DNA from: a virus
DNA: 64,000 nt
Reading direction: 5' to 3' (one strand)
Virus record (IMG/VR): IMGVR_UViG_3300042302_000394
Coordinates: 143,814-207,813 of that record
The notes under the pieces are model-generated. The model was given only the letters and a program-made list of their open reading frames with translations, did no database searches and was not told the origin of the DNA. Positions 20,318-53,924 of the stretch are shown here, in pieces. Each line of letters opens with the position of its first letter. Position 1 is the stretch's first letter. A program made the translations under genes and the position numbers.

Positions 20318-22561
20318 TTAGGATCCTATTGCCAGTATATATGGCGTCATTACTGCGAACAGACTCTTGGTAAATGTTCTACCAGATATTGTTCCTATGC
20401 TGTTATTTATAACCAGGTCATTACCAATACGGAAATCTCCCTGCTGGTCTGTACCGGTATAGTAGACTTTCCCCCCATCTAATGCCACTGCTTGATTATC
20501 ACTGTTGGGTTCACCGCCTAGATAGGGCAAGGCCGAATTGATGTTTATACCTGCACCAATCCATTCAAAGTTGTGTGCCGAACTCTGTATTTGACTGTAT
20601 TGATGGAATGATACCACAGTGTTGTCCGCAACAGCCGGACTAACTGACGACTGTAAGGTAACTGTGCTCGAGTAAGCGTTTTCTAATATGTTAGATACGA
20701 TTGCTACTAATGCCTGTGCTCTTGCTGATTCAGTAGATGTTCCTGCTGTGGTACTAGTATTCTGCACTACACTAGACTGCAATGGAGTAACGGCTGTTGC
20801 TAATATACAATCATCTACAATTGTACTGATAAAATCATATGCTGCAATAGTAGCAGGTTTTTCTTCTAATGGTATTCTAAACACTGCTCCGTCGTAGTAG
20901 GAATCGGCAGCATCGGCAGTCTGACTATTGCCCCCGTATAATACATCGTAACTTACTGCATCTATAATATATCCTACATCTCTCTTGCAGGTGCCTGTAT
21001 TGTAGACAAGAGAAGGATATTCATCAGCAATATAGGCTATAGTTTCTTCTGCAATGAATGCTCTATTAGACTGAAGTAAAGTAACTGCATTAACAGTAGA
21101 AGTACTTGCACCTGTTGGTGTATTATAAGCCAGTGCAGGCGCTGCCGATTCGCCATTCTCTAATATGTTTAATAATATATCAAACAGATTAGATGTGCGT
21201 GTATAGGCAGTAGTTGCCGGAGTTAATAAAGCCAGTGTCTTGGTTTTTAAGAAACTGATAGCACTTAATGTTTCAGTTAATTGATCTTCTACGACTACTA
21301 AACTTGCTGCTCTATAATAACTCGTGCCTGCTTTCACAGTTTGATAGTTAGTGTTTAACACCATGTCGTATGCCACAGCATTTAAAATGTCACCTACGTC
21401 TCTACTGCACTTGAATTGATTAAAATCAAATCCTGGAAATGTTTCAAGAACATGATTAATAGTCATCACCTGTAATTTTGGCTTTTCGTTGAGTATAACT
21501 TGTCTAGAATTTCTTAAACCTGCATCTTCTGCTGTTAATATAGGATAGACAATGTCTGTGTTGCCCGTTTTAAATGCAGTTGCACTGACAATGGTATAGT
21601 ATGTACTAGTACCGAAACTGATAGCATCTCCCACGGATGGTTTAATACTTAAATTATCAATAGTAATTGTTCTACCACTAGATGTGCTGACTACCTTGCC
21701 TGTGTATTTTGCGGGACTTACTCCTACTGCTTTTAATGCATAGTTACCGAAACTGCTGTTACTGTTGGTAATAGAACAGAATCCGCCTGTTTCACACAAA
21801 AATCCCACATCGCAGCAAATGGTAAACACTGACACTAAAGATGCATATCCACTGTTTAACATATGTATGCCGATGCCGCCCTGGTTATACTGCGTGAACG
21901 CATCAACCATCATACTCTTTGTACCCAGTGCATGATCCCCGTCAACACGCATACCAGTACCGCTGCTGGTCATACTGGTGCAGTTTTGCACATATGGACT
22001 AGTAGATATAACACCTGCACTACCGTCCGGATCAAATGCCACTGCTGCGGAGGGGCTTACATGATCCTTAAATGTCATGTGTGCTAGGTAAGATCCATTG
22101 TTTACGTAGAATAAGTCGTTAGTGGGAGTTTGTGGACGAACTGTAACAGATCTTAAATTATCACCAATTACAGATACAAAATCTGGTACTGTGATAGGAT
22201 TTGCTTCAGTGTAGTCCCCGCTCTTGACAAAAACTGTAGTACCGCGAGTAGCAATAGCTAACGCTGCTTTGATAGTTCTTTTGCTTAAATTTAGTGCAGT
22301 TCCAGAATTTGCATCGTTGCCGCTTTCACTAACATACAGAACATTATCGACTGCAATGTTGCCCACGCTACCTGCATAACCTACACTACCTGTATAGCCG
22401 CGAATCCCGCCGTAGTCTAAATCTAGCCAGTTGTCCTGGCCGTTACCTATTTTAAACAGATCAGTATCTGTTTCTATACCCATTTCGGCTACAGCTAGGG
22501 CAGGGTTAACGCTAGCCCATTCCGCTGCTGTCCCCCTTTTAAATTGAATCTGTATTGCCAT
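20318..22561 (-). CDS. Beta-helix tail fibre with Mtd-like N-terminus, 747 aa
   Basis: The N-terminal ~55 residues (FKRGTAAEWASVNPALAVAE, then DLFKIGNGQDNW) match the N-terminal domain of major tropism determinant-type fibres. A short GYTGSVGYAGSVG linker follows. Residues ~80-290 have pectate-lyase-like right-handed beta-helix spacing (GTTVFVKSGDYTEANPITVP, ISTSPYVQNCTSM). The rest is a mixed C-terminal domain that may carry receptor or depolymerase function. A TAAATA motif (22591-22586) lies 24 nt upstream. Confidence 0.82.
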   Translation of the reverse strand: MAIQIQFKRGTAAEWASVNPALAVAEMGIETDTDLFKIGNGQDNWLDLDYGGIRGYTGSVGYAGSVGNIAVDNVLYVSESGNDANSGTALNLSKRTIKAALAIATRGTTVFVKSGDYTEANPITVPDFVSVIGDNLRSVTVRPQTPTNDLFYVNNGSYLAHMTFKDHVSPSAAVAFDPDGSAGVISTSPYVQNCTSMTSSGTGMRVDGDHALGTKSMMVDAFTQYNQGGIGIHMLNSGYASLVSVFTICCDVGFLCETGGFCSITNSNSSFGNYALKAVGVSPAKYTGKVVSTSSGRTITIDNLSIKPSVGDAISFGTSTYYTIVSATAFKTGNTDIVYPILTAEDAGLRNSRQVILNEKPKLQVMTINHVLETFPGFDFNQFKCSRDVGDILNAVAYDMVLNTNYQTVKAGTSYYRAASLVVVEDQLTETLSAISFLKTKTLALLTPATTAYTRTSNLFDILLNILENGESAAPALAYNTPTGASTSTVNAVTLLQSNRAFIAEETIAYIADEYPSLVYNTGTCKRDVGYIIDAVSYDVLYGGNSQTADAADSYYDGAVFRIPLEEKPATIAAYDFISTIVDDCILATAVTPLQSSVVQNTSTTAGTSTESARAQALVAIVSNILENAYSSTVTLQSSVSPAVADNTVVSFHQYSQIQSSAHNFEWIGAGININSALPYLGGEPNSDNQAVALDGGKVYYTGTDQQGDFRIGNDLVINNSIGTISGRTFTKSLFAVMTPYILAIGS

Positions 22562-37625: not shown

Positions 37626-37949
37626 TTAAATGGAGAAGCTACTGCCGCAGCCGCAAGTGGATTGAGCGTTTGGATTTTTTATTGAAAAGCTAGATCCGGA
37701 AAGATCTTCTTTGTAATCAATTTCGGCACCTTGTAGATACTGCATACTCATAGCATCTACTACGACTTTAAATTCACCAATTGGAAATTGGAAATCATCT
37801 TCGTTAAATTCTTCATCAAAGGTAAATCCGTAACTAAATCCAGAACAGCCGCCACCTTGTACAAAGGTTCTTAAGGCAAGTTTTGGATTATTTTCCTCCA
37901 TTAGGAGGTCTGTAATCTTTGTCTTAGCATTTGATGTTATGTTGATCAT
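37626..37949 (-). CDS. erpA: A-type iron-sulfur carrier protein ErpA
   Basis: The 107-aa protein carries the three cluster ligands Cys35, Cys99 and Cys101 in [15 protein letters not shown] and [11 protein letters not shown]. The C-terminal motif is the ErpA rather than IscA form. ErpA receives Fe-S clusters from IscU and passes them to apo-enzymes. I start at the ATG at 37949 ([11 protein letters not shown]) because the longer upstream frame has no homology to the family and no better ribosome-binding site. The four radical-SAM enzymes 3-11 kb away all need 4Fe-4S clusters, so this carrier may serve them (inference). Confidence 0.95.
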
Positions 37950-37963
37950 ACTACTATTTACAC

Positions 37964-37971
37964 TATAAATA
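37964..37971 (+). promoter_or_regulatory. Late promoter TATAAATA of the Cys-rich gene
   Basis: An exact TATAAATA lies 18 nt before the ATG at 37990, and AGGAG fills the gap. It is divergent from erpA. Confidence 0.7.
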
Positions 37972-37989
37972 TCCAAGCAGGAGAAAAAC

Positions 37990-38154
37990 ATGGAACAATA
38001 CATGGATGACTTTCAAAACTACAAACGATTTACAGCTAAATGCAAATGCGGATGTCCTGCACACTGCAATCATAGTTGTACTGAATGCGAATACTGCCCG
38101 GACTGCGAATGTCCAGAGTGCATAGAATTAGATAATAGCAGAGGGTACAATTAA
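37990..38154 (+). CDS. Cys-rich small protein, 54 aa
   Basis: Ten cysteines are packed in [20 protein letters not shown] and DCECPEC (residues ~18-44), with two histidines among them. It is likely a metal-binding mini-protein (zinc or iron-sulfur). AGGAG lies upstream of the ATG and the stop overlaps the next start by 1 nt. Its divergent position beside erpA is suggestive but does not prove a shared role. Confidence 0.72.
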
Positions 38155-39777: not shown

Positions 39778-40329
39778 TTACTTAATGCCAATAAGCATAA
39801 ATCTTGAGAACTTCCAAGTGGGGTACTCAAAGTCTTTTTGGCCGCGGTACAGTAGGTTACTAACTGGATAAGTCCCGATGAACTCGTCTAAACTACTGCT
39901 GTGTATGTGGTGGTCTTCGTGCGGCATATTGTTGCCTTGAAGTACTACAGTGGTTCCTTTTGGGATACTGTTCCACCAATCCAAACTTTCGAAGTGTTCG
40001 GTGCTTGTATTTATAACCAAATCTGGGCCGTGCCAGTCCAGATCAAGTAGATTACAGTCCTGGGTTTTAGCTTTAAACTTCCAGTTATCTATAACCCAAT
40101 TCTCGTTGATCATGTCCGCCACAGCTTCGCATTTTGGATCAACGTCGTAACTGCGTATCTTTCCAATCTGTATATTGCCTCGACTGTTTAATAGGAACGC
40201 TGTTACTCCATACCATCCGCCGTAGATCCAAATACTATCGACAGAATCAAAAAGTTTTTCTAATTCTTCGCAGAGCCAAATCTTACTTCCTATTTGACCG
40301 CTACTAAATGCATCCTTATTCACTATCAT
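39778..40329 (-). CDS. Class I SAM methyltransferase-like protein, 183 aa
   Basis: The Rossmann-like pattern includes SIWIYGGWYGVTAFLL (motif I region, with an unusual YGGWYG instead of ExGxGxG), RSYDVDPKCEAVADM (acidic strand 2) and DLVINTSTEHFES (strand 4). Close to small phage methyltransferase-like proteins. Substrate unknown. It flanks the radical-SAM island and may belong to it. Confidence 0.72.
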   Translation of the reverse strand: MIVNKDAFSSGQIGSKIWLCEELEKLFDSVDSIWIYGGWYGVTAFLLNSRGNIQIGKIRSYDVDPKCEAVADMINENWVIDNWKFKAKTQDCNLLDLDWHGPDLVINTSTEHFESLDWWNSIPKGTTVVLQGNNMPHEDHHIHSSSLDEFIGTYPVSNLLYRGQKDFEYPTWKFSRFMLIGIK

Positions 40330-40438: not shown

Positions 40439-42403
40439 ATGCCTGATAGATCTATACAATTACTAACTGATGTTTTTCCAAATTCAACTACAAATCATGG
40501 TAATTTGAACAATCCCGATATAATACTAGTCCAGGCACCTGGATGGGGAGTGCAAACAGCTCCGCTTTCTTTAGCATCACTTTCAGCCTATGTTCGGCAG
40601 AAAGGATACAAGATTTTACCATTAGATTTAAATGTTGAATTTTTTGCTATTAGACCTGAGAAATTTTCCATAATGTGGGACATAGATCAATCTCAGTGGT
40701 TTTGGGAATCTAAAGACTGCGTTAATGACCTGTTAACCGAATACAAAAAAGAAATTGATGACTTTGTCGAGTTAGTGGTGTCGACTAATACACCATTAGT
40801 TGGATTTAGTTTATACAACACTTCAATGCATACTTCGATGCATCTTATCAAACTGCTCAAAGCACGTAAGCCTGAGCTAAAGATTATTGTCGGTGGTCCT
40901 CATGCCCACCGATATCTAGCTGGTAATGTTTTGGCAAAAAATCCGTTAATAGATGCAGTCGCCCAGGCTGAGGGAGAAGAAACATTAGTAGACATAATTG
41001 AGCGTGTTCGAAAAAATCAATCATTGCTCGATTGCCCTGGATTGTTAGTGTTTAAAGACGGAGCAGTACATGCTACTCCAACAAGGCCAATGATTCCAAA
41101 AATCGACACTCTTCCGATACCCCACTACAGTGATTTTTCATTAGCTCCTTACCTATCCCCAACACGATTACCAATGGCGTCTAGTCGAGGGTGTCCTAAT
41201 AAATGTATATTCTGTAATGAGCAACCTTATTGGGAATCATATCGATTTCGGTCTGCAGAAAGCATGATTGAAGAAGTTAAGTACCAATTAAAATTATATC
41301 CTGAAATTGACTTTATTGACTTTCAAGATAGTTTATGTAACGGGAAGATAAGCGCAATTGAAAAGTTTGCCGAATACCTCATTGAAAATAAAATTAAAAT
41401 ACAATGGGCCGGACAGGCAGTTATTAGAAAAGAAATGACCGAAGAACTGATGATAAAATTAAAACAGTCCGGATGTGTGGTCATGGCCTACGGATTAGAA
41501 ACTCCAAACCCTACACTTATGAGGAGTGTAGGAAAGTTATTATCAAAAGGTGCCGATATTGATAAAATTGCTGAATCTCATGCAAGGACCGGACTTAATG
41601 CAGTTTACAATGTCATGTTTGGGTTACCGGGAGAAACTGAAGAAGATTCATTAATGGTCTTAGAGTTTTTAAGACGTAATTCAAAAAATAAATTATATGT
41701 AAATCCCAGTGCAGCATTTTGCGGATTTGCTAACGGAACTCCTGGATGGGAGAACGCAGAAAAATTCGGTATTGACAAAACACTCGGCGGAACTTTTTGG
41801 AAAAGTGTAGATGGTAATAACACATTCCTAGTTCGATTAAAAAGATTTGAAGATTTTTGTCGATTAGTTTCCGACTTAGGTATAAAAACCACTTATCCGT
41901 CGACATATCTTCTCAATAGAAATCAAGTCATTGCCCAATATTATATTGCAATAGGTCAACCAGAAAAAGCAATATACTATTACACAGAATGGGTTAAAGA
42001 TCATCCCGAAGATCAAATAGCTAAAAAGTTTTTATTCGAATATTCAGGTTTCTTAAAAAGTACCCCAAGTTCAAATGTTTATGCAATTAGCCGGCATTCG
42101 GATGAGAATTGGTTAAATGGTGTTGCTAGAAATTGGGGGCCTGCAATATTATTTTCACATGTTCCTTACATTTTAGAAGAATTAACAGTTGGTAAAATTG
42201 TACAGTTTTCAGATCTTCAAACAAGAAAAATAATTAGAGTTGAAGATAATTTTGAAAATGATTGTATTGTAATACACCTCGACGGCACTCATTTAGATGG
42301 AGATCAAGTTGGTTGGCCAAAACTAATAACTGTTTTAGAGGAGCCTAGCAAAGTTATCCCTATTAAGATAGTTAATTACACAGAAATAGATTTTAAAAAA
42401 TGA
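40439..42403 (+). CDS. B12-binding-domain radical SAM enzyme, 654 aa
   Basis: Residues ~25-220 are a cobalamin-binding-type Rossmann domain (LVQAPGWGVQTAPLSLASLS, LKIIVGGPHAH). The radical-SAM cluster motif is GCPNKCIFC (Cys252, Cys256, Cys259). A SAM-binding core follows (YGLETPNPTLMRSVGK, YNVMFGLPGETEEDS). The C-terminal ~170 residues contain a TPR-like helix pair (YIAIGQPEKAIYYYTEWVKD). Enzymes of this class often methylate or rearrange unactivated carbons. The gene overlaps the next by 4 nt. The DNA is visibly more AT-rich than the early region. Confidence 0.9.
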   Translation: MPDRSIQLLTDVFPNSTTNHGNLNNPDIILVQAPGWGVQTAPLSLASLSAYVRQKGYKILPLDLNVEFFAIRPEKFSIMWDIDQSQWFWESKDCVNDLLTEYKKEIDDFVELVVSTNTPLVGFSLYNTSMHTSMHLIKLLKARKPELKIIVGGPHAHRYLAGNVLAKNPLIDAVAQAEGEETLVDIIERVRKNQSLLDCPGLLVFKDGAVHATPTRPMIPKIDTLPIPHYSDFSLAPYLSPTRLPMASSRGCPNKCIFCNEQPYWESYRFRSAESMIEEVKYQLKLYPEIDFIDFQDSLCNGKISAIEKFAEYLIENKIKIQWAGQAVIRKEMTEELMIKLKQSGCVVMAYGLETPNPTLMRSVGKLLSKGADIDKIAESHARTGLNAVYNVMFGLPGETEEDSLMVLEFLRRNSKNKLYVNPSAAFCGFANGTPGWENAEKFGIDKTLGGTFWKSVDGNNTFLVRLKRFEDFCRLVSDLGIKTTYPSTYLLNRNQVIAQYYIAIGQPEKAIYYYTEWVKDHPEDQIAKKFLFEYSGFLKSTPSSNVYAISRHSDENWLNGVARNWGPAILFSHVPYILEELTVGKIVQFSDLQTRKIIRVEDNFENDCIVIHLDGTHLDGDQVGWPKLITVLEEPSKVIPIKIVNYTEIDFKK

Positions 42404-43182
42404 AAAGTTTTTTAAATCAATATAATGTTATATCTGAAGATATACCAGGGTCCTTACAATTTCCCAGTGCATTAGTATGGGACTCGTTATTAGGTTATCA
42501 AACCGAAAATAAAGTTGTGCGTAATTTTTTAGAAATAGGTGTATTACATGGAAAGTCTGCAATGCTAAGTGGGCTATATGCACAGGCCAACAACACACAG
42601 CAGGTGATTGTAGATCCCGGTGAATGGATGGACACAACTTATTCAAATTTACTATCAAAGATTGAGGGATTAAATCTAAGATTAATAAATGATTATTCTA
42701 ACAGTTTGGTGCATTTTCATTATTCTATTTTTCAAGAACATTCTCGCGATTATTCATGGTTTCATATTGATGGCGATCATAGTTATGCACAATGCTATAA
42801 AGATTTAATTTTAGCTGATCATTTTTTGTCTGACTATGGAGTTGTTATTGTTGATGATTTCTTTTCAACCATGTTTCCTCAGGTTACAGCTAGCACTTTT
42901 TCATATTTAGAAAAACATCCATTAAATTTAAAAATGTTTTTAGTTGGTCAATGTAATAAAGCATATCTATGCAGACCGCCAGCATTTGATTTTTATAAAA
43001 CGTTTTGCATAGATGTATTATCTAAAGATATGAAAGACCGAAAATATCCTGTAACTATAACTAAAACAACTTATCCTCAGGATTTTGATTGTTACGGGTA
43101 TCAACCCATAGGATGGACTGATGACAGAATGGAGTTTCGTGGTCCGGACTGGGATAGAACTAATTTTATAAAATATACCTAA
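42400..43182 (+). CDS. SAM-dependent methyltransferase (Methyltransf_24-like), 260 aa
   Basis: Motif I is FLEIGVLHGKSAMLSG. Strand 4 is WFHIDGDHSYAQCYKDL with VVIVDDFF, the cluster typical of Methyltransf_24/cephalosporin-hydroxylase-like methyltransferases that act on sugars or small molecules. It overlaps the radical-SAM gene (ATGA), so the two are translationally coupled and may act on one substrate. It converges with 43186-44433 with a 3-nt gap. Confidence 0.82.
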   Translation: MKSFLNQYNVISEDIPGSLQFPSALVWDSLLGYQTENKVVRNFLEIGVLHGKSAMLSGLYAQANNTQQVIVDPGEWMDTTYSNLLSKIEGLNLRLINDYSNSLVHFHYSIFQEHSRDYSWFHIDGDHSYAQCYKDLILADHFLSDYGVVIVDDFFSTMFPQVTASTFSYLEKHPLNLKMFLVGQCNKAYLCRPPAFDFYKTFCIDVLSKDMKDRKYPVTITKTTYPQDFDCYGYQPIGWTDDRMEFRGPDWDRTNFIKYT

Positions 43183-43185
43183 CAG

Positions 43186-44433
43186 TTAATTTTTCCACCA
43201 CGGCAAATATTTTTCTGTATTGTGATTTCGATAAGCATCCATCTTTTTTATTATCGAAACACTGTTTTTAAAATTTATATCTGACTCAGGTGTTCCGATT
43301 AAAAATGTAATCATTGCACTCAATATGTTAGCCTTTTCTTTAACTGCATCTTTTTCAAGTAGTTCTCTATTGTTTTCAAACCAGGTTGCAATTTCTTGAT
43401 ACACTGTATTTTTATAAGCTGTTGGTAAATTACTCGGGGATGCATAGCTTGGATCGTAGATATAATTTATGTGAGGAAAGTTTAAAATATTCTTTCCTTC
43501 CAACCTCACAATATAATCTAACAATTCTGTAAATTTATGTGTATTAAAAATAGAAAACACAGTGTGAAACTCGATACCAATATTTTCGTTTTCATTCGAA
43601 TATTGAACTATGCTATCAATATTATCTTTAACAATGTTCCATTTTCCAGGATATCTAATATATTCGTACATATCAGCAACAGCATCAATACTTACTTTAA
43701 TAGTCATAGTCTTAAAATGGCTCCAGATGTCAAACCATTTTGACGGTGTCACAGTTAAATTTGTATGTATAGATAAGTCAACCTGTTTAGATAAACCTGA
43801 ACTAATTAGTTCTTTACAAAATGTATAAAAATCGTTGTTGATTAATGGTTCACCACCGGTTACTAATATCTGCACTAATCCGTCAGTCTTTACTAGGTCA
43901 AGGATATGTTTAATTTGATCATAGTTCCATTGAGCTTTATAATCACTTTCTTTTTCACCCCATGGTTTAATGTTGAGGAATTTAAATTCTTTTATTAGTT
44001 GATCGCTAGCTCCCGGGGTACACATCTTGCATTGTAGATTACACTTATTCGACCAACTTAAATCTAAGTAATTTACATCAACAGATTCTAACTTGCCCGT
44101 ATGCATTTCAGTGTTTGTTATAATATCTTCAATCGGCCATCTCTTTACAAACCAATTTCTAACACTTTCACCCCCATTGTCCTCAACATTATAACAATGC
44201 TGGCACTCGGCCACCCGCTCGCCGTCTATCATTTTCTTTCTTATATTTTTTAATTGATCAATATTGTAAAATTCAATCAAACTTGTTATCTCATTTATTT
44301 TTACAAACTTGCCATCTTTCTTTAATCTTCCTGCATTAGTAGAATTACAACAAAGACGCATATTGCCATCAGTGTGTGTAGAAAAATGATTCCATGCTAA
44401 CGGGCAATATGTCTTAGTCATGTTTAAAAGCAT
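43186..44433 (-). CDS. Radical SAM protein with N-terminal twitch-like domain, 415 aa
   Basis: The N-terminus carries a SPASM/twitch-like cysteine set (YCPLAWNHFSTHTDGNMRLC C, AECQHCYN). The catalytic motif is CNLQCKMC (Cys131, Cys135, Cys138), then LVTGGEPLINND. Proteins of this type occur in marine phages without known function. The start overlaps the upstream radical-SAM gene by 20 nt. In-frame ATG 12 nt further in is an alternative start. Confidence 0.88.
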   Translation of the reverse strand: MLLNMTKTYCPLAWNHFSTHTDGNMRLCCNSTNAGRLKKDGKFVKINEITSLIEFYNIDQLKNIRKKMIDGERVAECQHCYNVEDNGGESVRNWFVKRWPIEDIITNTEMHTGKLESVDVNYLDLSWSNKCNLQCKMCTPGASDQLIKEFKFLNIKPWGEKESDYKAQWNYDQIKHILDLVKTDGLVQILVTGGEPLINNDFYTFCKELISSGLSKQVDLSIHTNLTVTPSKWFDIWSHFKTMTIKVSIDAVADMYEYIRYPGKWNIVKDNIDSIVQYSNENENIGIEFHTVFSIFNTHKFTELLDYIVRLEGKNILNFPHINYIYDPSYASPSNLPTAYKNTVYQEIATWFENNRELLEKDAVKEKANILSAMITFLIGTPESDINFKNSVSIIKKMDAYRNHNTEKYLPWWKN

Positions 44434-45763
44434 CTTTCAAGTCTGGAATATAATCGCCGATTGAAATTCCTCTATGGTCATCAAGTATTTTAATTCTATG
44501 TTTGAATACCTTAAACAGTTTCGGATTGTCAGGCTTGGTTAATTCATTTAATAACAAGTGTATCTTTCCATCTAGTCCGGGAAAATCTTTAATGACTTGA
44601 CTATTTTCTAGATATGCTGTTAATCTCTGTGTAGCTAAATCTTTCAGAGACTGTGGTAACATTGATATTTGTTGTTCCATCGGAAACATAATTAAGTTGA
44701 TGTTATATGGCCACTCTTTAAAGTATGGATGCACTTTGGCCTGTTCTTCTATAAAATATAATAGGCTATCTAAGTTAACAATGTTCAATGAGCTAACGGT
44801 GATATTATTCAATATCTTAACATTGCTGTGTTTCATATAACTCTTTGCTTCAATGTAATTCTTTGATACCTGGCGCCATTTACTAGGATATCTAGCATAA
44901 TCGTTGACTTTATCAAACCCGTCAATACTGGCAATGAGTTCAAACTTTTTAAACTTAGGCATTAACTCTAAAAAGTTTTTATTTAGGTTTGTAAAGTTAC
45001 TGGACAAAAATACAGTAATATTTTTAGCATGATCATTGTCTACAACATATTGCAGTGCCTTTAACACAAATGGCATAATTGTAGGTTCACCACCGGCAAA
45101 ACTTAATACTTCTAGTCCAGGTGCTAATTTTGTAAAACTTTCCCATATTTCTTCATTATCAGACCAATCGGGATGTTCGACATCTTTCCATGTTTTATTA
45201 TGTTCAGTGATTCCAAACACACTGGAAATTTCAATAAATCTTCCATCTAATACTTTGATGCCACCAAATTTATTATTAAGTTCACCTAACTCTTTAGCAA
45301 TCTGACTACTGTCGTAACTGTTGCACATGACACATTTAAGGTTGCACAAATTACTAGGCTTTAATTCTAAATATGTTGGTTGGTGTAACACTTCGTAACT
45401 GTTGTTTATGCTGTTGGCAACTATCTCTAATGTTTTTCGATTATTTTTATAATCTTCAATTGACCGTGTACGCATACTAACGTCGCCGTCTCGAATGCAA
45501 CGCCTGCAAGCATCAGGAGTATCTCCTGTATGTAATTTTTTTCTTAAATCAACAAGGTGTTCGCTGTTCCACGCATCACTAAAATTATCCCCGGATAAAA
45601 TGCTAATGATATCTCCGTTCGGGTGTGTCATTGTTCCTACATAATTACAACACGGTTTAAGGTGGCCAGCGGGATTAGAACTTAGTTGTGTAAAAGGATA
45701 AAAACAAAATGTCTCACTTTCAATAATTTCTGTTCTTAATTGATCAATCTTGTCCATATTCAT
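44414..45763 (-). CDS. Radical SAM protein with N-terminal twitch-like domain, 449 aa
   Basis: It is a paralogue of the neighbouring gene. The auxiliary cysteines are FCFYPFTQLSSNPAGHLKPC C and ACRRC; the SAM cluster is CNLKCVMC (Cys140, Cys144, Cys147); the SAM-binding motif is SFAGGEPTIMP. It overlaps both neighbours by 20 nt, so three radical-SAM genes are translated as a coupled set. Probably acts on a peptide or glycan, by analogy with SPASM enzymes. Confidence 0.88.
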   Translation of the reverse strand: MNMDKIDQLRTEIIESETFCFYPFTQLSSNPAGHLKPCCNYVGTMTHPNGDIISILSGDNFSDAWNSEHLVDLRKKLHTGDTPDACRRCIRDGDVSMRTRSIEDYKNNRKTLEIVANSINNSYEVLHQPTYLELKPSNLCNLKCVMCNSYDSSQIAKELGELNNKFGGIKVLDGRFIEISSVFGITEHNKTWKDVEHPDWSDNEEIWESFTKLAPGLEVLSFAGGEPTIMPFVLKALQYVVDNDHAKNITVFLSSNFTNLNKNFLELMPKFKKFELIASIDGFDKVNDYARYPSKWRQVSKNYIEAKSYMKHSNVKILNNITVSSLNIVNLDSLLYFIEEQAKVHPYFKEWPYNINLIMFPMEQQISMLPQSLKDLATQRLTAYLENSQVIKDFPGLDGKIHLLLNELTKPDNPKLFKVFKHRIKILDDHRGISIGDYIPDLKDAFKHD

Positions 45764-48689
45764 TATTCCTTGTTGCTTCTAACACTAATTTCATTTCTGG
45801 TATGATTTCATAAGTATTCTCACCTCTTAACTTATCCAATTGTTCCGTCACTGTTACAAATTTCTTTGCTGATGTTAAATCAAATGGTTTTTTTAATTCA
45901 TGTATGATATGTGTTAAAAGATGATCTATGCTTGTATTATATGTTTCGTTGTGCTCTTTGACAAAAGTTTCTAATTTAATTACAGTCTCTGCACGATAAT
46001 CATCGGGTAGAATACTAACATGATAATGTGAAGGATGTTCTAACAAATTGATGAAGAAATTATTGTAATTAATAAATTTGGTTTTAGGATGTTGACGTAT
46101 AACTCCTATTGAAATCAAATGTTTAATAATTTCAGGAAATCTGCCAACATTCCAAGCACCTACAGTAATACCCGGGCGTATGATAGCATTATCTAATGTC
46201 ATCAATTCTTTTAGATTTGACTCAACCTTAGACCATACAGTGCCGGCTCGAATGAGTTCTGCACGTTCTCCAACTTCATCGATACTGGGCCATATTTCTA
46301 ATTTGCCAAAGTTCCATCGCCGCCAGTAGTCAATAACATTTTTCTTATTATAAGATAACACTGATGCATTTGTGTTATATGATAGTTTAACATCAAATCG
46401 TTGTTTTTCTACCAACATTTCTAAAATTTGCCAGTGTTCAGGCATGAGTAGAGGTTCGCCTCCAGCAAAGTAAATTCTTTCCACATGGTTAATTTGATCT
46501 TTTAGAAAATCAAAGTTATTCTTATCATCTACTGATTCGATGCTCCATATTTTTTCTTGATCAGTGAGGCCTAATTTTTTAGCATCCGGCACCCATGCTG
46601 AACTGTAACGTGGTCCGCAACTACGACATTTAAAATTGCAAAGATTACTAAAACGGAAATCCCAATACTTCAACTCCATAGTAGTGCATGTTCCGTCTGC
46701 TAGTGTAATTTCTGGAATTTTTTTTACTACCTCTGGAAAGTCTCTATTGTGATAGAAACGACCACTTTCACCAGTGACCCGTTCTCTATCAAAACATTTA
46801 CGGCATATTTCGGGCTCTTTGCCCCCTATCATATCTTTTCTTAAAGATTTCATATTGCCGCTGTTCCAAATTTCTTCAATGCTCTGATGTGTTAGATCAC
46901 CAGCAAAATAATTATGTACAGAGGTTAGGCAACACGGAATTACTTTTCCACTAGGTTCAAATGCAAGATGCATCCAGGGCACTGCACATATTGTGGTTGT
47001 ATTTGTTGCAACTGCAACTACATCTTCTTTTTTGACAATTTTAATAGGTTTGTAATCGAAGGCAGTTATTTTTTTTGAGTTGAACATTGTGAGTAACCAG
47101 GACCTGTTATTTATTTGTTGTAATGTTGGTGTATTTTTATTTGCATCAAAGAACTCTTTAGCAGAATGTACAGCAGATAATGCATAATTACCGAACGGCC
47201 TATCTACTCCCAGAGTCTCCCATGCTGCCAATCTATCAATAGCTTCAGCATTATCGGGATCTTGTGCAATGGTATTGCATAACTTAATTGTTTCCCTAAA
47301 TGCACTTCGCCATGTGGCAAACTCGTCTGTGTTAAATGTTGTAATGTTACTGACTTTATCGAAGACTTTTAATTTAGGAACAATAGTCGTCAGTAGGTCT
47401 AATGTTTTCCAAACTTTGATTTTGCCAAATGCCCGCTTAGGGAATAATTTAACGCCACCGTAACCATATTCTAAATCATTAACAGGATTCTTACTGTGCC
47501 AGACGTATGTACAGTCTCTATCAAATATCTCTGGTTGGTAGTCGAACTGCCAGTCATCGACTAAGTAAGCATCACCGTCGACTACATAGAACATGTCAGT
47601 CTTGGATAACTTAGCCGCTGCCTTATGTGCCTCAAAGATACCAGTAACACCATCCACACGTTTGGCATGTGGTGCTTTTTCTAAAACACGCTGCCAATTC
47701 TCTTCTGCATTAGATTCATGGTAACTAATAAAGATTACATCCAGTGTTTCGGCAATCAGAGGAGTAACTGTTCCTATTTCTTTAACACCCACAATCTCTG
47801 CACTGGGAGTAATTTTCAAAGCCCAAATCTTCTCCCCGTTTATTTCTTTGTCTAGATACCATATATGTTCATAGGCTAGATCGTGCCAAGGAATGTCGTA
47901 ATCTAAATCAAAACGCATTTCTGGTAGGCTAGGATTTTGTTCAATTTTAAACTCAGGACTAACTGTGCCTAACCATTCCCATTTAGAAGTTTTTTTACGT
48001 TTAGGTTCAAACTTAATCAACCAAGTACCTGGTTTTGGACTGTAGTTAGGATCCAGCTCAAGTGCAGTAACGTAATCCAGAAACCAAAATGGCGGATAAC
48101 ATTCGTTGACATCGATGAGTAGTTTAGGAAGATCAGGATTCCATGTAACTCGCATTTCAGGCATAACGTATCCCATGTCTTTCTCGCCTTTAACGTTGGC
48201 GCCAGGCACCTCACAAGTAAATGCCCATATTTTATCTTCTAAAGGATTGACTCTAGGATCAATGTACCAAACTAACGTATAGTCAGCATCGTCTTGATTA
48301 TATACATAACTTTCTATAGGATTAAATTCAAATGTAATAGAACTTGCTATTGCAGAATTCTTTTTCCAGATAGGCGTTTTTGCCCACATGTGATTCTTTG
48401 GTACTTCTATTTCATGTGTTTCATATCCAGCATATGGGTGCCACCCATCTTTAAACAGTTTGGCTACCCACTCACCTTTGTATGTCCAAACTAGACATTT
48501 TCTTGTTTTAGGCACATCATTTACAAAGTTCAAGACACTAGAATGTCTTGCATAAGGATTTATCACTAAGAATTCAGTATCGCCTTCACCTAAGTTGTAT
48601 AATTGTTGGTCATAATAAAACTCATCCCCTCCCCAGGGGATTTCTTTGATTAGGTCTGTATTGATTTTGGGGTATTGATCTAGAAGCAT
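45744..48689 (-). CDS. Glycosyltransferase-like and radical SAM fusion, 981 aa
   Basis: Residues ~1-130 are unassigned. Residues ~135-315 hold three diverged ~75-residue repeats (VWYIDPR..KIWAF; WFLDYV..TWLIKF; IWYLDKE..KIWALK, each followed by GTVxPE-like turns). Residues ~315-530 resemble a GT-A fold (DVIFISYHESNAEENW, VVDGDAYLVDDW with DGD at 371-373). Residues ~565-981 are a twitch-type radical-SAM module: auxiliary C568, C586, C587, and CRKC near 630; catalytic CNFKCRSC (Cys684, 688, 691); YFAGGEPLLMP. The fusion ties radical-SAM chemistry to a sugar-transfer domain. Confidence 0.87.
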   Translation of the reverse strand: MLLDQYPKINTDLIKEIPWGGDEFYYDQQLYNLGEGDTEFLVINPYARHSSVLNFVNDVPKTRKCLVWTYKGEWVAKLFKDGWHPYAGYETHEIEVPKNHMWAKTPIWKKNSAIASSITFEFNPIESYVYNQDDADYTLVWYIDPRVNPLEDKIWAFTCEVPGANVKGEKDMGYVMPEMRVTWNPDLPKLLIDVNECYPPFWFLDYVTALELDPNYSPKPGTWLIKFEPKRKKTSKWEWLGTVSPEFKIEQNPSLPEMRFDLDYDIPWHDLAYEHIWYLDKEINGEKIWALKITPSAEIVGVKEIGTVTPLIAETLDVIFISYHESNAEENWQRVLEKAPHAKRVDGVTGIFEAHKAAAKLSKTDMFYVVDGDAYLVDDWQFDYQPEIFDRDCTYVWHSKNPVNDLEYGYGGVKLFPKRAFGKIKVWKTLDLLTTIVPKLKVFDKVSNITTFNTDEFATWRSAFRETIKLCNTIAQDPDNAEAIDRLAAWETLGVDRPFGNYALSAVHSAKEFFDANKNTPTLQQINNRSWLLTMFNSKKITAFDYKPIKIVKKEDVVAVATNTTTICAVPWMHLAFEPSGKVIPCCLTSVHNYFAGDLTHQSIEEIWNSGNMKSLRKDMIGGKEPEICRKCFDRERVTGESGRFYHNRDFPEVVKKIPEITLADGTCTTMELKYWDFRFSNLCNFKCRSCGPRYSSAWVPDAKKLGLTDQEKIWSIESVDDKNNFDFLKDQINHVERIYFAGGEPLLMPEHWQILEMLVEKQRFDVKLSYNTNASVLSYNKKNVIDYWRRWNFGKLEIWPSIDEVGERAELIRAGTVWSKVESNLKELMTLDNAIIRPGITVGAWNVGRFPEIIKHLISIGVIRQHPKTKFINYNNFFINLLEHPSHYHVSILPDDYRAETVIKLETFVKEHNETYNTSIDHLLTHIIHELKKPFDLTSAKKFVTVTEQLDKLRGENTYEIIPEMKLVLEATRNNEYGQD

Positions 48690-48728
48690 TACTACTAATT
48701 ATCTTAGTAGAGAATGCTTCCGAATCTT

Positions 48729-50258
48729 TTAGAAACTCTTAGGCAGCGACACAATGCTGGTCAGTACTGTACCCGAATTGTCAAATCCTATAAATTTACG
48801 TGTCACTGTTCCATCAAGTATAGCGCCGGAGTCTAACTGGTAATACCTAGGCGGAGTATCAACATTCGAATAATAATGGAATGCTCTAGTTAGATTTTTT
48901 AGTGTTGTATCAAAATCACTGTTAAGATCCGATATGTCCCTCAACTGATTTAATGAAACATTAACGTTTCCGTTGCCGTCGTCATTGACAATGAACATAG
49001 ATCCTACAGAAGATTCTAAACCAAAAGATGTTTCGTAGTCCAATCCTGGTGTACTCTTTACCTTATACAGTGGCAGGCCGTCACTATTTGTGGCGCTACT
49101 GAGATGCTGTACAGGTCCAGTAGACGATAACGGGAATCTATATACAGTGGCCCATCCACTATACGGATAGTCTGTAGCTGTGGCAAGATAGCCCAATGTG
49201 CTGGTTGCTGTAAAGACTTGACCACCAGCACCATATAAATCTGTGCCATCTCCACCTGTACCTACACCTATGGTAAGAACTTTAACTTGATCAATCTTGT
49301 CGTAACTCATTCCTATAACACTGTTATACGGTGCAGCAGGACTTACCCAATAACCCAAGGATTCAAATCTCGAAAGGTCAATAGCTACATTAACTATGTT
49401 AGTGACTGTGACTACAGAGTTAATTCCAACACCGCCTTCAGATGCAATAGTTACATTGTTAGTATAGGTTCCGGGTGTGTTGTTTAGCTCTAGCACACGC
49501 AATCTTACAGTAAAGGTATTGTTGGCTTTATCAACGATGCTCCATCCTGGGTTGTTGTTTCCAAACGATGTAGTAAAATCTAATAGTACATCTGGCTGAT
49601 CAATTAGATCATATACGGGCATAATTTCAAAACTTTGACGTACTTGTTCTCCTAGCTGTGTTGCCGTGGTAGTTGCAGTGATGGGACTTACACGCATACT
49701 AAAGGTACGTTCTACATTTTGAAATGTAGGTATCTTATAGTTTACAGCATCAAAATCAGAAACAATATTTAAGAAATTAGAATATTGACCTACTTCAGTT
49801 CCATAATAAGAGATAATAAAGTTTTGACTGCCGCCCGGAGGGATAACAAAGGAACTGGTAGTATGAAATATTGGAAAGACTCCGTTAGGAAAAGATCGTT
49901 TAATACCATTACCATCAGTGTCTCCTACGGTCAAAGGAGTATTTCCGTCATTATGTAGGGTAAGAGTCTGTCGTGTAGCAGTACTGTACCATTTTAACAA
50001 ATCTGCCCAGTTAGTTGGATTTTGCAAAACAAGATCTGTGGTACTGGTCGAAGCTGGTGGAAATACAAAGGTAGGAACGGGATTAGGTGTTACTCGTAAT
50101 ATCTTTGTTTGAGTAACAGCCGTAGGTGCCCTCTTAACTGGTTCCCATAGATATTTCAGTGTCTCTAATGTTGGAACTGGGCCTTTAACAGCGCCACCAG
50201 ATATTCTAAATCCGAGTGAACTGGTAATTCTTAGATTAGTATCAAAATTATTTGCCAT
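48729..50258 (-). CDS. Virion structural protein, 509 aa
   Basis: This beta-rich, Thr/Ser-rich protein has no enzymatic motif. The centre resembles Ig-like or ASPM/SPD-2-type beta domains (LTLHNDGNTPLTVGD, FIISYYGTEVGQYSNFL), and the end is a mixed domain. It is the first of three adjacent late genes likely to encode tail or neck proteins. Confidence 0.72.
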   Translation of the reverse strand: MANNFDTNLRITSSLGFRISGGAVKGPVPTLETLKYLWEPVKRAPTAVTQTKILRVTPNPVPTFVFPPASTSTTDLVLQNPTNWADLLKWYSTATRQTLTLHNDGNTPLTVGDTDGNGIKRSFPNGVFPIFHTTSSFVIPPGGSQNFIISYYGTEVGQYSNFLNIVSDFDAVNYKIPTFQNVERTFSMRVSPITATTTATQLGEQVRQSFEIMPVYDLIDQPDVLLDFTTSFGNNNPGWSIVDKANNTFTVRLRVLELNNTPGTYTNNVTIASEGGVGINSVVTVTNIVNVAIDLSRFESLGYWVSPAAPYNSVIGMSYDKIDQVKVLTIGVGTGGDGTDLYGAGGQVFTATSTLGYLATATDYPYSGWATVYRFPLSSTGPVQHLSSATNSDGLPLYKVKSTPGLDYETSFGLESSVGSMFIVNDDGNGNVNVSLNQLRDISDLNSDFDTTLKNLTRAFHYYSNVDTPPRYYQLDSGAILDGTVTRKFIGFDNSGTVLTSIVSLPKSF

Positions 50259-50261
50259 GAC

Positions 50262-51086
50262 TTATTTGTTTTTCCTATATAAGGATATCCACGATTTTCT
50301 TGCATATCTTTTACTTACAACAGCACCAGTTACAGTCATTGCCGCTAACCAAACAACACTATTTGGTATAGATAATTTATTAAATCTGTTACCGCGTAAC
50401 ATATTTGTAGCATTAGTAAATGACCATTCTACATATTTAGATGTCCACCTTGTTCCGTTTTTAAACAATAAAGGAAGAATGATTTTTGATCCAATAACCT
50501 GATAACCGCGTCGAAATGTTTCACCTAACATTGTATCATGTAAAGCATTTTCGCACCACTTTACTAATTCCATTTTTTCAGATAAAGACCAAGTGCCAGC
50601 GGTAGTCAACGCTGTTGCTACTACGCAAGCACCGGCGCTGCCGCTGCCGCTGCCGCTGGCCGAGCAACTACTACTGTTGCTGTCAGCACAAGAAACACCA
50701 CCGCCACCACCGCCGTCACCTGTAGGTGTGTAAGGAACTTCTGGGTCTGGCTGCGATGTTCCAGAAATACGCACTGTTGTGGTCTCTGATGTAGTAGTTG
50801 AACTAGCGTCCGGGTACTGACCAGACACTGTTAAAACACTGAGATAGTCACCTGTGACCAGTGTGGCCGAAGTATGGAATGTGGTAAATTCAGAACTGTA
50901 TGTACGTGGGGGCAACACCAACGGACTAGCCAGGGTAATGGGCGTTGTGGTAATGTCACTGCCCTCTCCAAATACTGTGAGATTCGCGTGTTGCAGTATC
51001 TTAGTGTTGTCAATTGTAAAAGAGAATGTGGTAACAGTGATGGTGTTTGCACTGTTGTTGTATAGTTTAAAGTTTCCCGCTGCCAT
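50262..51086 (-). CDS. Virion protein with Gly/Ser hinge, 274 aa
   Basis: The N-terminal ~120 residues are an Ig-like beta domain (FKLYNNSANTITVTTFSFTI). A flexible Gly/Ser/Cys linker follows (~125-155, GDGGGGGGVSCADSNSSSCS). The C-terminal half is helical and basic (CVVATALTTAGTWSLSEKME, WCENALHDTMLGETFRRGYQ), like the CFI-box/helical tails fused to secreted bacterial proteins, then a hydrophobic helix near the end. It is likely a virion protein; the CVVATAL segment also occurs in host extracellular proteins. Confidence 0.7.
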   Translation of the reverse strand: MAAGNFKLYNNSANTITVTTFSFTIDNTKILQHANLTVFGEGSDITTTPITLASPLVLPPRTYSSEFTTFHTSATLVTGDYLSVLTVSGQYPDASSTTTSETTTVRISGTSQPDPEVPYTPTGDGGGGGGVSCADSNSSSCSASGSGSGSAGACVVATALTTAGTWSLSEKMELVKWCENALHDTMLGETFRRGYQVIGSKIILPLLFKNGTRWTSKYVEWSFTNATNMLRGNRFNKLSIPNSVVWLAAMTVTGAVVSKRYARKSWISLYRKNK

Positions 51087-51101
51087 ATATGTTGTTCTCT
51101 T

Positions 51102-51929
51102 TTATAGTACGATGTTCTCAAAATGGGTCTTGGGCGTGATGATAAAGCCAGGAGCCGTGGTATCTGTATAGGTTATGGTAAATTCCACACCCTTGCCGGT
51201 GTTAACGTCCTTTTGTGCTACCATGCTGATCTGCAGGGTACCACTGGTCCAGTAGGTACTGGTAGTGGGCCAGGCTGTGTCGCGCCACTGTGTTCTGGTA
51301 TATTTCCAGTTCTGGGTATCCTGTATATAGAGTATAAATGCAGCCCACTCCTGATCTAGATCGTTGACCCCCGTGGTGTCATCGTAGAAACTGCTCCAAA
51401 CAAACTCACCCCCAGTGTTAAAGAAATAGTGACCTAGCAGGCTAGTAGTCCAACTGGCCGTGACCACATGGCTGATTTCCCCAACCCATGATGTAGTTGT
51501 ACTGGTACTAACACCCCCTCTATAAGGGCTTGTGGTCACAGCGCCTGTGCGATCTATAGTATTACCACCATCTGAGAAGTACTGGCTAGGATGGCAAGTG
51601 TACCGACGCACATCGTCCAAGAGCCAAAGAGCTCTGTAGTGTAGATCATTATGTGTGGCTGTGGAGACCAGGGTAGTGCCTGTTGTGGGGCCCACTGTTG
51701 ATGTAGTGACGTTTAGTACGTGAAGATGTATTTGATTAATGTCAGCAATCAAGTTATGCCAACCCTGGGCTGTGACCCTGTTGCGATTGGTCACGGGCAC
51801 ACTGTTCAGCCAGGTCAACCCATAGCCATCTATGCCCGTGCCCAGAATTTCTTCCACATTGTTGTAGATGGTGTTGTAGTCGTCGATCTGGATTAGAGTC
51901 AATGGACTGGAATATAGTGGATAGGTCAT
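51102..51929 (-). CDS. Virion structural protein, 275 aa
   Basis: The N-terminus (LIQIDDYNTIYNNVEEILGT, WHNLIADINQIHLHV) is typical of T4-like phage fibre or neck proteins. The rest is Thr/Ser/Trp-rich beta structure ending FIITPKTHFENIVL. A GATAAATAT late motif lies 21 nt upstream of the ATG. Confidence 0.72.
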   Translation of the reverse strand: MTYPLYSSPLTLIQIDDYNTIYNNVEEILGTGIDGYGLTWLNSVPVTNRNRVTAQGWHNLIADINQIHLHVLNVTTSTVGPTTGTTLVSTATHNDLHYRALWLLDDVRRYTCHPSQYFSDGGNTIDRTGAVTTSPYRGGVSTSTTTSWVGEISHVVTASWTTSLLGHYFFNTGGEFVWSSFYDDTTGVNDLDQEWAAFILYIQDTQNWKYTRTQWRDTAWPTTSTYWTSGTLQISMVAQKDVNTGKGVEFTITYTDTTAPGFIITPKTHFENIVL

Positions 51930-51950
51930 AATGATGTTACAATAGTGTGA

Positions 51951-51996
51951 TATTTATCCTTGATCTCGACATTGACAAATCAGCTTAGATTAAATA
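51951..51996. promoter_or_regulatory. Divergent late motifs
   Basis: TAAATA on the minus strand (51956-51951) faces the 275-aa gene. TAAATA on the plus strand (51991-51996) ends 8 nt before the ATG at 52005. Confidence 0.55.
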
Positions 51997-52004
51997 CTAA
52001 CATT

Positions 52005-52763
52005 ATGAAACGATACAAACATTCAGGTACCATGGGCGACATCATATATGCTCTGCCCATAATGCGTCACTTTGGCGGTGGAGAATTTTATCTACACCTC
52101 AATCAAGTTGACTGGATAGGTCAACACTACTACGGTAGCCCCCCAAACCCATTCCATCAGGGTCGCATGACCCCAAAAGATCTAGACTTCATGCAGAGCT
52201 TTTTCCTGGCCCAGGACTACATCACACGCTGTGATGCACTGGATCCCAAAGAGGAAATCACGCACAATTTGGATCTATTCAGACCCTTGTTCGTGGGTCA
52301 CCCGGGCAACTATGTGGACTGCTACGCAGAAGCATTCAAGATCCGAGAGCCGGGTCTGCGCACAATTTTACGCAATCAACCCTGGCTCACCGTGCCCAAG
52401 CCCACGCCCATTGCGGAAATAGTGGTCAACAGGTCCGCTCGTTGGAACAGTCCCGACAGTCTAACAGGTTGGACAGCCATTCGTGATCAAGCAGAAGATC
52501 GAGCTGTGTTTGTGGGTCTACCCGAAGAGCATCAAGAGTTCTGTAAGTTTGCCAACTGGGCCATACCCTATCATCCCACAGAGACCCTACTGGAGTTGGC
52601 TGAAGTCATTGCGGGTGCGGATCAGTTCGTGGGCAATCAAAGCCTAGGTTTGAGTCTGGCCATAGGACTGGGAGCGGACTGGGCCTGTGAACTACGCAGA
52701 GATCTACCACAGGAACGCAATGAATGCTGGTTCCCGGATCATCCCCGCGGCGAATACTTTTAA
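52005..52763 (+). CDS. GT9/heptosyltransferase-like glycosyltransferase, 252 aa
   Basis: The N-terminal GxMGDIIYALPIMRHFGG matches the glycine-rich start of GT-B heptosyltransferase-like enzymes. The C-terminal part has FVGLPEEHQEFCKF and ELAEVIAGADQFVGNQSLGL, the family's nucleotide-sugar region. The start at 52005 is chosen over the longer frame because the homology begins there. It pairs with the next gene 8 nt downstream. Confidence 0.82.
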   Translation: MKRYKHSGTMGDIIYALPIMRHFGGGEFYLHLNQVDWIGQHYYGSPPNPFHQGRMTPKDLDFMQSFFLAQDYITRCDALDPKEEITHNLDLFRPLFVGHPGNYVDCYAEAFKIREPGLRTILRNQPWLTVPKPTPIAEIVVNRSARWNSPDSLTGWTAIRDQAEDRAVFVGLPEEHQEFCKFANWAIPYHPTETLLELAEVIAGADQFVGNQSLGLSLAIGLGADWACELRRDLPQERNECWFPDHPRGEYF

Positions 52764-52771
52764 TCAACAAT

Positions 52772-53503
52772 ATGACAGCAAAATCTCCACGTAGACCCAA
52801 ACTGGGCATAGTACAATCAAGAGGTCTAGGCGACATAGTGATAGCTCTGCCCATAGCTAAATTTTATCACGATCAAGGCTGGGATATTCTGTGGCCCATA
52901 TGTACAGAATTCATCTCGCACTTTGAACACACAGTACCCTGGATCAAATGGATTCCAGTGCAGACAGACCCGGGCAGTTTCTTCTACGACCAACCCATGA
53001 AGGCCCTGAAGAACTTTCATTGTGACGAGATCATCCCCCTGTATCAAGCACTGACGGGCCATAAATTCCACGAAGAACTGTACTTTCAACAGACCAAGTT
53101 TGATCAATACAAGTACATCAAAGCGGGCGTACCATTCTTAAACAAGTGGAAACTTAGCGAGTGTATTCAGCGTGATGCACAAAGAGAACAACGTCTATAT
53201 GACAAGATCATTACCAATGAAAAATACGCAGTAGTACATCTAGAAGGCAGCGATCACACGGCCAACTTCGATCCCAGTATAATACCCAGCGACTGGCAAA
53301 CAGTGTATATCAAAGCGGAAACTGACAGCATCTTCGACTGGCTAAAGATCATAGAAGGCGCAGAAAGTCTAGTAATGGTCGACAGTGTGTATAGTAATCT
53401 AGTTGATCAATTAAAGATCAAAACGGACAAATACTTTATACCAAGAAGTCATGTGGGACTAACACCTGTACACGGTATGGACTGGACATGGATTAAGTTC
53501 TAA
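52772..53503 (+). CDS. GT9/heptosyltransferase-like glycosyltransferase, 243 aa
   Basis: The N-terminal LGIVQSRGLGDIVIALPIAK is the family's glycine-rich loop. The C-terminal SIFDWLKIIEGAESLVMVDS corresponds to the sugar-nucleotide site of the first enzyme (AGADQFVGNQS). The two probably act in sequence on LPS or a phage-modified glycan. I start at 52772 because earlier in-frame codons overlap the upstream gene. Confidence 0.82.
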   Translation: MTAKSPRRPKLGIVQSRGLGDIVIALPIAKFYHDQGWDILWPICTEFISHFEHTVPWIKWIPVQTDPGSFFYDQPMKALKNFHCDEIIPLYQALTGHKFHEELYFQQTKFDQYKYIKAGVPFLNKWKLSECIQRDAQREQRLYDKIITNEKYAVVHLEGSDHTANFDPSIIPSDWQTVYIKAETDSIFDWLKIIEGAESLVMVDSVYSNLVDQLKIKTDKYFIPRSHVGLTPVHGMDWTWIKF

Positions 53504-53509
53504 ACACAC

Positions 53510-53664
53510 AGTATATATACACTACACTGTATACACCCAAATACCCCGCTACAGCCTAATACGTTATAGCGGGATTCTTATATATACACATAGTCAAATA
53601 CCCCGCTGTAGGTCTATTGGGGATTAGTCATACAGCGTATATACACATAGTCAAATACCCCGCT
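53510..53664 (+). repeat. Three-copy element with exact 57-bp period
   Basis: CAAATACCCCGCT ends at 53550, 53607 and 53664, exactly 57 bp apart. The last two copies share the longer core TATATACACATAGT before it (27 bp in all). Each is followed by an inverted repeat: CCCGCTA/TAGCGGG (53545-53551/53567-53573) and CGCTGTA/TACAGCG (53604-53610/53631-53637). It could be a protein-binding iteron array, an origin element or a set of terminators. Confidence 0.8.
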
Positions 53665-53924
53665 ATAAGAGGCCCCTCACACAGTAAAGAGAACTCAAAC
53701 TTCTACAATGATTGGCGGTGGGAGAACCTGAGAGAACCTGAGGAAGAACGGTGAAAACCATTTTACGATAACCTCTCTTCACCATGGCCCCACCACAGCC
53801 CGCACCCTAGAAATCACGGTGAATCCACAGCCAAACCACAGCATCTTATGCTGGAAAAGTGGCATTTTCGCCACAGAAATGCTGGAAATACACCGGTTAT
53901 TAGCAGGGTTTTTCAGCCCCACAG
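53665..53924. other. Non-coding region rich in CCACAG and short hairpins
   Basis: No credible gene was seen. It holds the direct repeat GAGAACCT (two copies, ~53719-53738), at least four CCACAG repeats, the hairpin CAGCAT-CTT-ATGCTG (~53842-53856), and GTGGC-N6-GCCAC, which read on the minus strand is followed by TTTT and could be a weak terminator. Confidence 0.5.

Follow-up and report, generated by a model that had tools for sequence, protein, structure and literature searches.

A conserved, exchangeable cassette of twitch-type radical SAM enzymes and a glycosyltransferase-like domain in large aquatic phages

Background

What do radical S-adenosylmethionine (rSAM) enzymes do for a phage, and do several such genes lying side by side in one phage genome belong to a single system? 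Phage rSAM genes have been listed for 15 years without a substrate in the papers that we found. The original prediction for the locus analyzed here was that four rSAM genes, along with methyltransferase and glycosyltransferase (GT) domains, comprise an AT-rich island that makes or alters a sugar-containing group of the virion or the host surface. We describe below the evidence that three of these rSAM enzymes and a GT-A-like domain form one conserved, swappable unit that is located beside virion-type genes in large aquatic phages.

The stretch of DNA analyzed, hereinafter the window, forms the final 64 kb of a 207,813-bp virus record and contains tail-fibre, baseplate and virion genes identified by PHROG matches; seven rSAM genes were found in the record. 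The segment between positions 40439 and 48689 of the window is AT-rich locally, with a GC content of 35.0% compared to 43.4% in the remainder of the window, but is not exceptional genome-wide, other 8-kb stretches of the same phage genome being at 32% GC. A second AT-rich stretch (locus L078, record positions 71586-81290, GC about 0.32) has genes for another rSAM enzyme and for a Rieske-domain protein, along with two TctC-like receptors, of which one is subthreshold in Pfam, and several SGGxDS (PP-loop-like) proteins; it is possibly another biosynthetic island. At least 40 tRNA genes are present in the scanned part of the 208-kb record, approximately 39 of them in a row at record positions 83070-92415, where most amino acids are covered and a B12-type rSAM gene (86457-87959) sits inside the array.

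Results and discussion

Organization of the locus

The genes of the locus, in window coordinates, are the following.

39778..40329, minus strand: class-I-methyltransferase-like protein (by eye), 183 aa, no library match
40439..42403, plus strand: B12-binding rSAM enzyme, 654 aa, PF02310 and PF04055
42400..43182, plus strand: Methyltransf_24-type methyltransferase, 260 aa, PF13578, 4-nt ATGA overlap with the B12-rSAM gene
43186..44433, minus strand: twitch rSAM C, 415 aa, NF033640 324.2 bits, 20-nt overlap with the rSAM B gene
44414..45763, minus strand: twitch rSAM B, 449 aa, NF033640 305.7 bits, 20-nt overlap with the fusion gene
45744..48689, minus strand: fusion protein, 981 aa, with a repeat-like region (residues 1-312), the GT-A-like domain (313-540) and twitch rSAM A (560-973)
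47070..47753, minus strand: GT-A-like domain of the fusion, supported by alignment with phage proteins and by Foldseek
45771..47012, minus strand: twitch rSAM A, at the C-terminus of the fusion, NF033640 352.6 bits (residues 565-967)

The gene content originally described is borne out by the translations, the ORF coordinates and the domain searches. The four rSAM genes encode CxxxCxxC motifs (CPNKCIFC, CNLQCKMC, CNLKCVMC and CNFKCRSC); the B12-type gene is joined through ATGA to the methyltransferase gene, with both expected domains detected; the three twitch-type genes are consecutive, with both overlaps exactly 20 nt long; and one of them is fused, within the 981-aa protein, to a domain that structurally matches GT-A enzymes. 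The 183-aa methyltransferase-like gene was left out of that description; its family recurs in rSAM cassettes, with relatives in loci L047, L164, L167, L174, L177, L182, L185 and L186 (L numbers designate the loci compared). An assembly artefact was rejected as a source of this arrangement: the 981-aa protein is found at 100% identity in several other assemblies, one of which, compared in full, has the same 20 kb at 100%.

The twitch rSAM enzymes

All three minus-strand enzymes score 306-353 bits against NF033640 (N_Twi_rSAM), far above its curated cut-off of 170 bits, and thus are members of this family, which is defined by sequence and whose name assigns no reaction or substrate. The N-terminal twitch/SPASM cysteines that the three enzymes were predicted to share are found in all of them, and PF13186 (SPASM) matches at the N-terminus, clearly for the fusion protein and for the 449-aa enzyme, and just subthreshold for the 415-aa one (18.7 bits, cut-off 21.5). 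In an alignment of 20 phage homologues with a mean identity of 32%, the twitch cysteines C13, C31, C74 and C77 and the rSAM cysteines C129, C133 and C136 are invariant in 20 of 20 sequences. Comparison with locus L022 yielded pN and pS values of 0.085 and 0.738 for rSAM A, and of 0.089 and 0.625 for rSAM B. Given the invariant cysteines and a pN that is about a tenth of pS, the twitch genes are under purifying selection, and the possibility that they are degenerate remnants was rejected on the same grounds.

Among bacteria, NF033640 matches at E<=1e-40 were found in 2 of 274 genomes of one class and in 0 of 14 control genomes, compared to four members above the cut-off in the 208-kb phage record, so a chance occurrence was rejected as well. 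One of the two positive bacterial genomes is the centre genome of the search, and its twitch locus, which carries relatives of phage-cassette genes, may be a phage contig. Inspection of 141 neighbours of bacterial twitch rSAM genes revealed mainly other rSAM genes and few GTs, and no clear pathway was seen among them. Many twitch-rSAM genes, often with rSAM neighbours, are present in Bdellovibrionota-like metagenome-assembled genomes (loci L085-L159, at most 9 ORFs per locus), and some viral records contain at least 10 matches to the family each.

The well-studied SPASM-type rSAM enzymes are mostly modifiers of peptides and proteins, and the main rival to a role in sugar chemistry follows from this: the twitch enzymes could modify virion proteins directly, by introducing cross-links or epimerised or hydroxylated side chains, with the GT-A domain glycosylating the same proteins, so that sugars would not be the rSAM substrate. 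This reading is in line with the placement of the cassette directly after structural-type genes on the same strand, with the presence of Asp/Asn beta-hydroxylase-like genes (PF05118) in 5 of the 36 related loci described below, and with the identity of the PDB entry that the GT fold matches best, SunS, which is a peptide S-glycosyltransferase. However, the auxiliary domain of the twitch enzymes is N-terminal, not a C-terminal SPASM domain as in the maturases of ribosomally made peptides (RiPPs), and neither a precursor peptide nor a leader-binding domain was seen with these enzymes; overall, we consider direct protein modification unlikely. A RiPP system in particular is disfavoured as far as ORFs of at least 60 aa go: none of those in the window is an obvious precursor, and the window has no counterpart of the 74-aa ORF that is conserved in many of the related cassettes. 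In those cassettes (L167, L169, L171, L173, L177, L182 and L184-L187), this mostly cysteine-free protein of 73-78 aa, with a consensus near LSxRELQxESARALSTxxATNNNIxQFNKxAHHNSxNWYxAVIEWYI and no Pfam match, is encoded beside twitch-rSAM arrays and is a candidate substrate or partner.

The GT-A-like domain and its fusion to rSAM A

No Pfam family matches residues 313-540 of the fusion protein, but this region is homologous, by alignment, to 12 other phage proteins. In the AlphaFold model, residues 316-540 have block-mean pLDDT values of about 63-93, and a Foldseek search against the PDB retrieved GT-A folds, namely SunS (7msn, the best match, E 7.6e-5, prob 1.00), WrtF, RmlT and GtrB; the TM-scores are low, as only half of the region was modelled with confidence. 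The domain contains a DxD-like motif, VVDGDA, as well as YGYGGVKL, and the paralogues have IDADN. The GT is identified by the fold of a single confidently modelled domain, which is GT-A glycosyltransferase-like at the level of fold class only, so that the acceptor is not readable from the fold.

Fusion to rSAM A is one of several states of this domain. It is a separate gene in L164, L013, L042 and others, and the GT-A and rSAM A genes are adjacent in L041, L042, L164 and others; in L164, specifically, two overlapping genes, one for the GT protein and one for rSAM A, occupy the place of the 981-aa fusion, and L024 has a second, independent GT-A/twitch fusion. Elsewhere in the record, a fourth twitch rSAM gene, at about 95 kb, adjoins a GT34-type glycosyltransferase gene. 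Methyltransferase-like and 2OG-type oxygenase-like genes were recognized by eye around that rSAM gene. The same phage also encodes a second fused glycan enzyme, an 1122-aa protein (window 5612-8980, minus strand) with glycosyltransferase and methyltransferase PHROG matches in a single chain, in which GT4-, GT2- and FkbM-like parts can be discerned by eye.

Conservation in related loci

Searches with the 981-aa and 415-aa proteins found 58 and 30 viral loci, respectively, and grouping by a shared twitch enzyme at >=95% left 36 non-redundant loci, each no shorter than 8 kb, the window's own phage included. These loci are metagenomic contigs, often fragments, in which ORFs were called by a simple longest-ORF rule; all 36 were found via a twitch enzyme, so that the counts that follow describe the neighbourhood of that enzyme rather than the frequency of the cassette among phages. 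At least two twitch enzymes are encoded in 22 of the 36 loci and at least three in 16. One or more of three GT-type families (GT-A, recognized by structure, and c7 and c13, named by eye) are represented in 23 loci, the other 13 lacking all three in the stretch seen. The c3 family, discussed below, is found in 11.

Three loci, L022, L164 and L165, share the order A-B-(x)-C with the window. In L165 (A, B and C 69%, 67% and 64% identical to the window's enzymes) and L022 (86%, 85% and 38%), A adjoins B; in L164 (63% [62.6%], 60% and 59%), a methyltransferase gene lies between them. GT-A precedes A in L164 and L165, and L022 lacks it. As a single gene, rSAM A is found in L017-L022 at 86-88% identity. 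The original prediction pointed to unlinked genes or lost cysteines in related phages as evidence against one system; that comparison was run, and the twitch/GT unit survives it, with the order kept in these three loci and the cysteines invariant.

The predicted link to sugars gains support from the GT-A fold, the GT-type genes in 23 of the 36 loci, the GT34-type gene next to the fourth twitch rSAM gene and a cytidylyltransferase in one cassette. The latter (PF02348, L185 6147-6848, within a phage rSAM cassette) resembles, by eye, a CMP-sialic-acid-type synthetase.

The B12-rSAM and methyltransferase pair

The 654-aa protein combines a B12-binding domain (PF02310, 54.1 bits) with the rSAM core (PF04055, 49.5 bits), both above the cut-offs, as in class B rSAM methylases, and accordingly is a predicted methylase; its partner matches PF13578, Methyltransf_24, with 46.8 bits (cut-off 26.3). 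The protein falls into none of the characterised equivalogs (ApyD, HpnJ, PhpK and others), the best score, 113.7 bits, being far below the cut-off of 750. Outside the contigs of its own phage population, no close relative was found for either protein, and a search for the source of the B12-rSAM gene gave weak matches only, at 25-29% identity, in 4 of 369 genomes. In this respect, the original prediction that all four rSAM enzymes serve one pathway is not supported, and with close relatives found only in its own population, the pair is probably separate cargo.

Two unrelated, abutting acquisitions, rather than one pathway, are therefore somewhat probable in our judgement, a reading that is compatible with our preferred explanation of the twitch/GT array. 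The pair and the array are on opposite strands and convergent, and L164 lacks the pair next to its counterparts of the array genes. Against this, a B12-type rSAM gene and a twitch array occur in the same locus in 6 of the 36 phage loci (this phage included), in some cases a few genes apart. B12-type enzymes with 24-26% identity are encoded in related cassettes, and distant ones were also noted in L022 and L039, which makes an optional methylation step possible as far as sequence comparison goes.

Exchange of the rSAM block between close relatives

Replacement of the rSAM block between close relatives was found in L012/L058. These are 94% identical to the window over positions 47292-53668, with another stretch at 86% past position 53700, after which the sequences differ. 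The break near 47292 lies inside the GT domain: the exchange spares the N-terminal part and the GT domain, with 73% protein identity over residues 1-567 of the 981-aa protein, but the rSAM domain after the break and the twitch genes downstream are not the same.

Genomic setting and ErpA

Upstream of the cassette, and on the same strand, three genes precede the fusion gene; the gene for an iron-sulfur carrier lies on the other side of the locus.

48729..50258, minus strand: structural-type protein (by eye), 509 aa, 34% identical to L164 3765-5207 in the same place, no PHROG match
50262..51086, minus strand: structural-type protein (by eye), 274 aa, in the position of a 390-aa gene of L164, no PHROG match
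51102..51929, minus strand: c3-family protein (c3 HMM), 275 aa, found upstream of the cassette in related phages
37626..38003, minus strand: ErpA-type Fe-S carrier, NF010147 161 bits, cut-off 117

The GT and rSAM A genes of L164 come after the same structural-type genes as in the window, and in L041 and L042 the c3 gene is preceded by genes for virion-structural and tail-fibre PHROG proteins. With tail-fibre and baseplate PHROGs in the window and c3 next to tail-fibre-type genes in relatives, the location may be that of a T4-like host-recognition/tail-fibre region. The structure model of c3 (pLDDT 51.5) is too poor to establish c3 as a component of the virion, and the names structural-type (for the three upstream genes), SGNH hydrolase and heptosyltransferase-like were given by eye without a library match. 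Two overlapping plus-strand genes at 51960-53503 look, by eye, like GT9/heptosyltransferases, have no family match, and are both found beside the cassette in L164 (66% and 55% identity).

The phage ErpA that was said to be next to the rSAM set is confirmed by its NF010147 score but is 2.4 kb away, with several ORFs in between; its family recurs in L028/L059, L037 and L062. It is outside the operon and possibly helps to meet a demand for Fe-S clusters. Its presence in this genome fits the view that the rSAM enzymes are auxiliary metabolic genes that boost anaerobic or cofactor metabolism of the host, as proposed for the Campylobacter phages CP220/CPt10 (PMC2853527). We find such a general metabolic boost quite improbable: a booster would not usually come as tandem paralogues in a fixed order, be linked to GT and virion-type genes, or have its alleles swapped, and no named metabolic equivalog was matched above the cut-off.

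A possible function

From the genes, motifs, linkage, fusion, selection and allele swap observed, we infer a substrate, a reaction and a purpose. The location of the cassette with host-contact genes and its swapping between near-identical phages suggest that it probably makes a surface group on which diversifying pressure acts. Tailoring of glycoconjugates is favoured by the coupling to GT-A, the additional GT-type genes, the virion-type neighbours, the exchange of alleles and the interpretation of pelagimyophage cassettes in terms of the host surface. Hence we propose, in a judgement evenly poised between acceptance and doubt, that the GT-A domain and rSAM A, B and C comprise a conserved, exchangeable tailoring cassette for glycoconjugates of the virion or the host surface. 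The GT34 neighbour of the fourth twitch gene and the PagP gene near the rSAM array of Vibrio phage K566 (see below) also speak for this proposal, and the fold-class level of the GT match, the 13 loci without any of the three GT families, the few GTs beside bacterial twitch genes and the poor model of c3 speak against it. The GT-A domain would add a sugar to an acceptor on either surface; the twitch enzymes would cleave S-adenosylmethionine at the [4Fe-4S] cluster, yielding a 5'-deoxyadenosyl radical; and this radical, aided by a cluster held by the N-terminal twitch cysteines, would oxidise or rearrange that sugar or the residue to which it is attached. The resulting surface group might act in superinfection exclusion, in receptor masking or through altered fibre binding. 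The B12-rSAM and methyltransferase pair would probably be a separate, optional methylation add-on. A more specific version is tentative and rather doubtful: a dedicated line of a GT and tandem N-twitch rSAM enzymes might put a radical-made modification on tail-fibre proteins or host glycans and be exchanged as an allele between phages, as a radical-chemistry counterpart of serotype conversion.

With the fixed GT-A/rSAM order, the fusion, the conserved cysteines and the allele swap, the vague notion of an 'auxiliary gene' gives way to a claim that can be tested. Should the cassette be a true surface modifier, radical chemistry would join the means of phage superinfection exclusion or host-range switching.

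Comparison with known systems

The suggestion that such a phage-encoded set is new was too strong, being preceded by CP220/CPt10 (2010), a marine phage with 12 rSAM genes (2017) and the pelagimyophage cassettes (2020). We found no publication that describes the GT-A/twitch unit, or the fusion, gene by gene. Among cultured phages, Vibrio phages K566/K567 are similar to the cassette in having three rSAM-annotated genes with interleaved unknown genes, but the identity to twitch rSAM A is only 26%, and our queries detected no relatives of the GT-A domain or of c3 among cultured phages. In K566 (L082), a gene annotated as PagP, for lipid A acylation, is located at 22005-22454, the three-gene rSAM array lying 5.6 kb before it.

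Marine viromes with an enrichment of rSAM, glycosyltransferase and RmlD genes have been described (PMC7150976). In pelagimyophages, rSAM cassettes are located in the host-recognition cluster, and the GTs have been interpreted as modifiers of the host O-chain (PMC7029224); the present phage likewise appears to have its rSAM genes within a variable tail-fibre/GT region. The T4-like marine phage TARA_ERS488813_N000010 encodes 12 rSAM enzymes and an A-type Fe-S carrier (PMC5332604), so the combination of ErpA and rSAM enzymes in one phage is not new, and the two phages share an Fe-S carrier in an rSAM-rich genome. Unlike either of these, the present phage is represented by a 208-kb record with the large tRNA complement described above.

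The closest parallel to the exchange comes from the Campylobacter phages CP220/CPt10, distant T4-like phages with 11-12 rSAM genes, in which, as described by Timms et al., a cluster of 10-12 genes, five of them for rSAM enzymes, is swapped between otherwise near-identical genomes (PMC2853527). These phages encode a putative glycine amidinotransferase, and no GT fusion is reported in the passages considered, which sets them apart from the present one. What they have in common is the multitude of rSAM genes and a module swapped between close relatives, and the replacement in L012/L058 parallels the interchangeable rSAM module of CP220/CPt10.
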